The position numbers were made by a program, and so were the translations under genes. Below, piece after piece: positions 1 through 2,085 of a stretch of DNA of 64,000 nt; the stretch's first letter is position 1; each line of letters begins with the position of its first letter. The DNA lies in assembly GCF_019443125.1 (NCBI RefSeq), contig NZ_JAHYXK010000006.1:1-64000 (forward strand), written 5' to 3'. The stretch comes from Pontibacter aydingkolensis. GTDB taxonomy: Bacteria; Bacteroidota; Bacteroidia; Cytophagales; Hymenobacteraceae. The notes under the pieces are model-generated. The model searched no databases and was not told the DNA's origin. It was given only the letters and a program-made list of their open reading frames with translations.

Positions 1-60
1 TTTCACTACTTTCACACTGTGGCAGTAGGGGCAGTTTATCTGGATAGTTATCTCGCACAT
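1..60 (-). CDS. IS1-family transposase, InsA-like N-terminus (partial)
   Basis: Twenty codons are visible, from an ATG at 60 to the window edge. They read MCEITIQINCPYCHSVKVVK, with a CPYC zinc-knuckle pair followed by VVK. This is the signature opening of IS1 InsA proteins, whose N-terminus carries a CxxC zinc finger followed by a VV(K/R)NG segment. InsA alone binds the IS1 ends; the InsAB' frameshift product is the transposase. The frame is open to the edge, so nothing can be said about the frameshift site, the catalytic DDE part or whether the copy is intact. Confidence 0.7.
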   Translation of the reverse strand, partial: MCEITIQINCPYCHSVKVVK

Positions 61-123
61 AACTTCCTGTAAACACCCTTGCTGTCATACTTATTCCAAT
101 ATCATACATTGTAGACCACAACC
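1..123 (-). mobile_element. IS1-family insertion sequence, one end only
   Basis: The start of an IS1-type zinc-finger reading frame runs off the left edge, reading leftward from 60. Beyond its start codon, positions 101-123 read, on the minus strand, as a 23-base end beginning GGT and finishing TGAT, which matches both outer ends of the E. coli IS1 terminal repeat (my hand alignment gives 12 of 23 identical). The distance from repeat tip to start codon, about 63 bases, also fits IS1. The outer boundary at 123 is an inference; the rest of the element, the other repeat and any target duplication lie outside the window. Confidence 0.55.
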
Positions 124-336: not shown

Positions 337-2085
337 ATGAAAACAGGCTTACGAATAATTCTGATTCTGACTTTTGTATCAGGCATGCTTTTCTTGTTTA
401 AGATAGGAATACATTACAACAAAAGACACTTTATTTCTGATGAGTTAGCTGAAACCCCTAATCAATTGATTATTGGAAGCTATGATGACTATTGCAAACA
501 AAACTTAAACATACCAACAGGGAGTTTAAAAATATACACATTCAAGTGGCTTAATCCAGACACTATGATGATACGTGAGCAGTTGTACTCAACGCTCACG
601 AAAGGCCAAGCTGTGTTGCTGACCATAGAATTATTGGATAAGCAAGTTGAAGATGCCACTGATGCTAACGTACTGCAAGCATTACTAAATGGCGTTTATG
701 ACAATAAAATAAGAGCAATGTGCCATGCTTTGATTCAAAATCAAGATAATATATATCTACGATGGAACCCAGACATGGAAGTACCTTCAGAGCATTACTA
801 TTGGCAAAACCAAGCACCTGCGCTTTACATAAAGGCTTTCCGCTACTTTGCAAAAAAATGTAAAACTTATATACCTAATGCTAAAATTGTATGGGGGCCT
901 GCAGGATTTCCAGGAACTCTGGAATATTGGCCCGGAGCCGATGTTGTAGATTTCTCAAGCGTAACCATTAACAGCCCATCCGAAATTTCTACTCCCGTAA
1001 AATATCCTTCTGCAAACTCTAAAACAGAATTGATTAAGCGTAAACTTCATCGGCTTCGCTTTATCCAAAAACCTATAATTGTTATTCTCTCTAATCAAAT
1101 AAAAAAAGACATTTATACAGAAAAAGATGTTAAAGATGCCGCTCTGGCGATTGAAGCTTTCAATAAGGATTCTCTTATTCGGATAAAACAGGTTCAAAGC
1201 AGACAAAACATACCAGTGCGCTTTACTTCGCGCTTAACTAAAGAGCAGGAAAGTAAGGCTAACCTTAAAGTTGGGGTGTATGATCCATTGCGTGCACTAA
1301 CCGACCATAAATCTGTTTCAGTTGAGCATATTTTCACCAACTGGACAGATATTAAGAATGGGAAGTTCAGAAGACAATTTAAGGAAGCCAGCGCCAGGAA
1401 GCATGACGTAATCGTTACAATGGAGCCTTGGAGAGCTATTAGGAATGAGAAAGACCGTGCTGTTCTGGCTAAAGTTATCCAAGGCAAGTTTGATAATGAG
1501 TTGGCAGAACTGTACCGCATAATCTCGAATACAGATAGAACAGTTTATTTACGTTGGGCACACGAAATGGAAATCCCCATTGTACGTTACCCATGGCAAA
1601 GCCAGGACCCACACCTTTATATAAAATCATACCGATACTTTGTAAAGCAGAAGCCCTTTAAAACGAGCAATATTCGCTTTGTGTGGGGCCCTGCAGGAGA
1701 CCGTGGATCGCTGGAGTGGTGGCCAGGAGATGATGTAACAGACTATATCAGTATCGCTATTTATGGCCTACCTGACAAAAATATCACGGACCACCGCCTG
1801 CAAGAAACATTTGAAGCTATCTTAAATCGCAAACTGTACAGAATGCGGTTTGTAAACAAACCCATCTTTATCACAGAGTTCGGAGTTAAAGGCCCGGAAA
1901 AATATCAAATGAAATGGATGTCTGAGGCAGCCATAACTCTAAACAAGCATCCACAGGTAATAGGTATATGTTATTTTAACATGGTAGATTCACCTAAAGC
2001 ATGGGGAGAAATTGATGCTCCTAAATGGAATATTAGTACTAAGACCTTCGAGAGCTTTACAAAAACCTTAGCCAGGCCACACTGA
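337..2085 (+). CDS. Membrane-anchored tandem GH26-like glycoside hydrolase, first domain degenerate
   Basis: 582 residues. A basic N-terminus and hydrophobic stretch (about residues 5-24) predict a signal anchor, placing the rest outside the inner membrane. Two homologous modules follow, about residues 43-275 and 308-580; both contain YLRW, a WGPAG segment and a WPG segment. The second keeps what GH26 (beta-mannanase family) needs: acid/base Glu410 in RWAHEME and nucleophile Glu514 in ITEFG. In the first the matching residues are Asp146 (RWNPDME, the His replaced by Pro) and Leu251, so it is probably non-catalytic. GH26 enzymes cut beta-1,4-mannan and related glucans; the substrate here is unknown. 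The gene is convergent with the permease at 2102, has no nearby polysaccharide genes, contains none of the AAGTATA words common in its neighbours and lies beside an IS, so transfer is possible. Confidence 0.75.
   Translation: MKTGLRIILILTFVSGMLFLFKIGIHYNKRHFISDELAETPNQLIIGSYDDYCKQNLNIPTGSLKIYTFKWLNPDTMMIREQLYSTLTKGQAVLLTIELLDKQVEDATDANVLQALLNGVYDNKIRAMCHALIQNQDNIYLRWNPDMEVPSEHYYWQNQAPALYIKAFRYFAKKCKTYIPNAKIVWGPAGFPGTLEYWPGADVVDFSSVTINSPSEISTPVKYPSANSKTELIKRKLHRLRFIQKPIIVILSNQIKKDIYTEKDVKDAALAIEAFNKDSLIRIKQVQSRQNIPVRFTSRLTKEQESKANLKVGVYDPLRALTDHKSVSVEHIFTNWTDIKNGKFRRQFKEASARKHDVIVTMEPWRAIRNEKDRAVLAKVIQGKFDNELAELYRIISNTDRTVYLRWAHEMEIPIVRYPWQSQDPHLYIKSYRYFVKQKPFKTSNIRFVWGPAGDRGSLEWWPGDDVTDYISIAIYGLPDKNITDHRLQETFEAILNRKLYRMRFVNKPIFITEFGVKGPEKYQMKWMSEAAITLNKHPQVIGICYFNMVDSPKAWGEIDAPKWNISTKTFESFTKTLARPH

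Follow-up and report, generated by a model that had tools for sequence, protein, structure and literature searches.

Why would a bacterium keep, behind one membrane anchor, two copies of the same glycosidase barrel of which only one has the residues for catalysis? The question is raised by a gene near the start of the window, by which we mean the whole stretch of 64,000 nucleotides of Pontibacter aydingkolensis DNA analysed here. The gene encodes a tandem GH26-type protein (Table 1). A preliminary description, made from the DNA letters, had read it as a dead module fused to a live one and as a recent arrival in its genome. We find good grounds for the first of these statements and reject the second, and on balance we regard it as probable that the protein is an inner-membrane-anchored periplasmic accessory of a cellulose-synthase-type GT2, in which the second module would cut or re-link the exported chain and the first would hold that chain or serve in docking.

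Table 1. Features of the tandem gene and its immediate context, in window coordinates.
Feature	Position	Strand	Remarks
Insertion sequence end at contig edge (context, not part of the system)	1..123	-	
Tandem GH26-type protein, 582 aa, ATG start	337..2085	+	Intact ORF; 32 intact full-length sequences including itself
N-terminal membrane helix, residues 2-29, likely signal anchor	340..423	+	Helix in model; hydrophobic start in homologues
First module, residues 43-279: GH26-like barrel lacking the catalytic pair and a beta-8 equivalent	463..1173	+	
P145-D146, in place of GH26 His-Glu (acid/base)	769..774	+	Pro in 32/32; E in 24, D in 7, A in 1
L251, in place of nucleophile Glu	1087..1089	+	Glu in 1/32 (L037)
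Linker, low-confidence, residues 280-307	1174..1257	+	pLDDT <50 at 284-307
Second module, residues 308-580: complete GH26 barrel, lichenase-like	1258..2076	+	
H409-E410, GH26 HE motif, acid/base	1561..1566	+	32/32
E514, nucleophile	1876..1878	+	32/32
Beta-8 stretch with W556, residues 541-567, no first-module equivalent	1957..2037	+	

The YLRW, WGPAG and WPG blocks common to both halves had suggested a tandem, and this is borne out by the homology of the two halves in blastp (32% identity over 230 aa, E 2e-37) and by profile-profile comparison of the two modules (hhalign, probability 100, E 2.9e-58). Sequence profiles relate the first module to 2ddx (E 2e-10) and to the GH26 lichenase CtLic26A (E 9e-9). 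Modelled alone it reaches a mean pLDDT of 84.8 (83 for the full protein), and in fold comparison CtLic26A (2cip) ranks first with Z 14.0 over 192 residues, by a small margin over other GH26 matches (Z 11-13) and other clan enzymes (11-12). The preliminary description had named an unrelated fold of residues 43-275 as an outcome that would count against it; homology to the second module, together with the profile and fold matches, instead shows the first module to be GH26-derived by descent and predicted fold. It is not itself a GH26 enzyme by the features of that family, as it lacks both the HE motif with the Glu nucleophile and a complete barrel with beta-8 and its Trp.

The second module has the clan GH-A features, HE motif and Glu nucleophile, and its model shows the eight strands of a (beta/alpha)8 barrel in order; the HE motif is named as a defining feature of GH26 in PMC6556568. 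Its best PDB match is CtLic26A (2cip; Z 26.2, rmsd 2.7, 248 residues, 22% identity), followed by the mixed-linkage xylanase AlXyn26A (Z 22.0) and mannanases (about 20), and the sequence profile agrees (CtLic26A, E 5e-15). A modelled fold that ranks a lichenase first is no proof of lichenase specificity. The window protein matches no Pfam or NCBIfam family above cut-off: PF02156 gives no match and PF11790 gives 17.8-20.0 bits (cut-off 21). Among the 32 second (C) modules, 11 match PF02156 at E 0.01 or better. A lipobox was sought in the tandem protein and not found.

To follow the catalytic residues we aligned the 32 intact full-length sequences, the window's included, all from distinct genomes; G129, where the gene is split into two ORFs, was excluded. 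The residue placements made earlier are correct, namely D146 after P145 (RWNP-D-MEVP), L251, E410 (RWAHEME) and E514 (ITEFG), and they prove characteristic of the family (Table 1): H409, E410 and E514 are kept by every second module, the His is replaced by Pro in every first module, and the nucleophile Glu is missing from 31 of the 32 first modules, that of L037 being the exception. The reading of a membrane-anchored protein with one dead and one live module is thus backed by the 32 homologues and by both structure models.

The fate of the remaining positions is uneven. Sixty-five columns are invariant in the second module, of which 18 are kept in the first (in at least 29 of 32 sequences), 33 are variable there and four hold a different residue that is itself conserved (P for H409, V for I413, Y/F for D455 and P for R456). 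The other 10 have no first-module equivalent because the beta-8 stretch including W556 is missing in 32/32, residues G543-W564 of the second module having no counterpart in any of them. The first module has E148, D205 and W156-Q157 as invariant residues, and the equivalent of Y476 is not conserved. The first module evolves faster than the second, with a mean column identity of 46% vs 67% and an entropy of 2.03 vs 1.31 bits. Since many columns are kept or re-fixed and others are lost, the first module does not appear to be simply decaying; with sides assigned from the GH26 family, it would be the beta-4/beta-5 side that is kept and re-fixed and the -1 side that is lost.

In a module tree all first modules fall into one clade (100/100) with a long stem. 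Three Hymenobacter-type C modules are placed beside this clade, but support for the placement is weak (80/66) and the three genomes in question also have first modules of odd composition, so that the tree does not fix the time of the duplication. A single-module relative of 325 aa (L064 1462-2439, in G640) has both the HE motif and the nucleophile Glu; it lies on a long branch and possibly resembles the pre-duplication form.

The same two-module plan, which the preliminary description had suggested looking for in other genomes, is present across several Bacteroidota families. The gene occurs in 33 genomes (G129 included), 32 of which are assessable for linkage, the surroundings in L024 ending at a contig edge. 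It adjoins a cellulose-synthase-like GT2 gene in 19 of these 32, often with ORFs that overlap or touch, although L020, counted among the 19, has an acyltransferase gene in between; in the other 13, the window's own genome included, the genes are unlinked. The adjoining GT2 proteins are about 900-1260 aa long. The usual third gene at linked loci encodes a protein matching PF02836 (GH2 TIM barrel), in several cases with a lipoprotein signal. In one locus (L112, G207) the synthase and GH2_C-type genes are broken into several ORFs, and in another (L087 9432-11948, G614) a sulfatase gene stands just upstream of the tandem gene, with the synthase elsewhere in the genome.

In Pfam, NCBIfam and the PDB, the matches of the GT2 protein are to cellulose-synthase families. 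We do not claim it as a canonical cellulose synthase, its NCBIfam CelA scores being 152-184 bits against a cut-off of 699. Many of these synthases themselves carry a GH26 domain and, after it, a third domain of TIM-barrel type, which resembles GH2/GH72 barrels and in L018 matches the glucanosyltransferase family PF03198. The HE motif is found in all 20 synthase-linked GH26 sequences listed (one genome appears twice, and two are separate ORFs); a simple pattern finds no nucleophile motif in those of L023 and L109.

Linkage is accompanied by co-occurrence. Counting a GT2 as present at E 1e-80 or better, we find it in 31 of 32 genomes with the tandem gene (7/8 within the family and 24/24 outside it), the exception, G027, having an intact tandem gene and no such GT2 in the genome. 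Within the family the GT2 is present in 7/8 genomes with the gene vs 67/196 without (Fisher P 0.004), and in the order sample, which overlaps the family sample, in 11/12 vs 68/378 (Fisher P 1.3e-7), both tests ignoring shared ancestry. In G129 the tandem gene and the GT2 are each split into two ORFs, a pattern consistent with joint decay or with errors of sequencing. In the window's genus the GT2 is present in 37 of 50 genomes and the tandem gene in 2 of 50, and as 35 of the 37 GT2 genomes are without the tandem gene, it is not needed for every such synthase.

The synthases beside the tandem gene also vary in their own GH26 domain. Seven are without it, and in an eighth (G373; L111 5605-8916) about 100 aa of it are left, a possible halfway state of domain loss. 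All eight adjoin the tandem gene, in a comparison whose synthases come from genomes chosen for having that gene. On the GT2 tree this group, whose members belong to two families (f11 and f23), requires at least two changes. In genus g58, two genomes with an unlinked tandem gene (G433 and G459) keep the synthase GH26 domain. In the order sample of 390 genomes, six have GT2 open frames of 970-1112 aa, and all six have the tandem gene.

We propose that an anchor would hold the protein in the inner membrane, its two barrels lying on the outer face, and that the protein would meet the glycan chain during export by the GT2 synthase. The second module would then cut or re-link the emerging chain, and the first, a pseudo-GH26 barrel with the -1 half lost and the beta-4/beta-5 half kept, may hold or orient that chain or dock on the synthase. 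The substrate would be a beta-glucan, perhaps of mixed linkage. A binding or regulatory role for the first module, as suggested earlier, is plausible from its sequence. A more specific version, possible in our judgement but doubtful, would make the tandem protein a subunit dedicated to a Bacteroidota synthase complex for beta-glucan, perhaps of mixed linkage, where the pseudo-glycosidase barrel would take the emerging chain and pass it to the active GH26 barrel, and where the tandem could replace the synthase's own GH26.

Other explanations have to be set beside this accessory role. GH26 enzymes are mostly catabolic, and the protein might be an ordinary scavenging glycanase whose active module breaks down beta-glucan, xylan or mannan from the environment and whose dead module is a binding module tethering it to the substrate; the 13 of 32 tandem genes that lie apart from a synthase, and the absence of a synthase in G027, would be expected of such an enzyme. 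We nevertheless think this rather unlikely given the linkage and co-occurrence with the GT2 synthase and an N-terminal membrane helix instead of a lipoprotein signal, a case limited by the fact that SusC/SusD-type neighbours may still be present. A further reading, that the first module retains enzyme activity through another nucleophile or with help from a partner, appears very improbable: its acid/base position is acidic in 31 of 32 sequences and the residues E148, D205 and W156-Q157 are invariant, but the nucleophile position is Glu in one sequence of 32, His has given way to Pro in all, the Y476 equivalent is not conserved, and the W556 equivalent is absent together with beta-8.

It is also conceivable, if quite unlikely, that the active module works chiefly as a transglycosylase, cyclising, branching or re-linking what the GT2 makes. 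No sequence feature here tells hydrolysis from transfer, and CtLic26A is described as a lichenase, a hydrolase; speaking for transfer are the glucanosyltransferase match of the third domain in the L018 synthase and the plan of a GT2 fused to a GH barrel, which is that of the Orphan/NdvB GT2-GH17 protein, whose GH17 is proposed to act in such a way (PMC10237404).

Returning to the accessory role, the nearest known systems each share a part of it. The Clostridium thermocellum lichenase CtLic26A (PDB 2cip, 2bv9) is like the C module in fold, with the catalytic Glu pair aligned. It is a catabolic enzyme, however, for which no membrane anchor, dead copy or synthase partner is known to us. BcsZ, the GH8 endoglucanase of cellulose operons, resembles the tandem protein as a periplasmic hydrolase encoded with a GT2 synthase, but belongs to another fold family and has a single module. 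The pseudomonad Orphan BcsA-like/NdvB protein likewise has a cellulose-synthase-like GT2 with a GH barrel on the periplasmic side, and is a precedent for linking such a barrel to a GT2 of the BcsA kind; it is another system, however, a single protein with GH17 and no separate dead/live tandem (PMC10237404). In Bacteroidota, clan GH-A enzymes of GH113 clade 5 occur near GT2 genes, and their authors propose building or remodelling of the cell's own polysaccharide; they differ from our protein in being GH113 with no dead/live tandem (PMC9032380).

GH26 enzymes, GT2 synthases and synthase-linked hydrolases are known kinds; among the matches listed in open PMC text we found no paper on a GT2-GH26 synthase or a live/dead GH26 tandem. 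The roles of glycosidases in synthase operons, BcsZ being one, have been hard to explain, and a conserved live/dead pair together with synthases that carry, lose or are without the same domain offers a natural series for testing what the enzyme does in chain export. Some Bacteroidota GH26 proteins would then perhaps be builders, not scavengers, which would change genome annotation.

In the window's own genome the tandem gene is found by itself at the beginning of its contig (C41), with a MacB-type permease as neighbour, 213 bases from the insertion sequence end that breaks the assembly. We take this element to be the start of an IS1-like zinc-ribbon protein on the minus strand; it has eight further copies at 98% or higher in the same genome, several of them at contig starts. 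The genome's GT2, of 618 aa and without GH domains, has BcsA cellulose synthases as its PDB relatives by sequence (E 3e-39) and is found on another contig (C34) with a divergent, lipoprotein-like PF02836 (GH2_C) gene beside it, and therefore the tandem protein, if it serves that synthase, acts in trans.

The lone position beside an insertion sequence and the lack of AAGTATA words had been taken as signs of recent arrival. The insertion sequence is real, the gene is far from its likely partner, and AAGTATA/TATACTT is indeed absent from it, but at the rate of the window no more than 2.9 occurrences would be expected, and zero then has a Poisson P of about 0.05. The GC of the gene (0.394) and its GC3 are mid-range among the window's 39 ORFs of at least 250 aa. 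We reject recent arrival on this ordinary composition and on the spread of the two-module plan; within Bacteroidota the tandem family is old. In the window's genus the gene has likely been gained or lost, because only 2 of the 50 genomes there have it. Farther along the window, from 36001 to 64000, GC drops to 0.30-0.37 from 0.42-0.46 (4-36 kb) and the GC skew becomes more negative.
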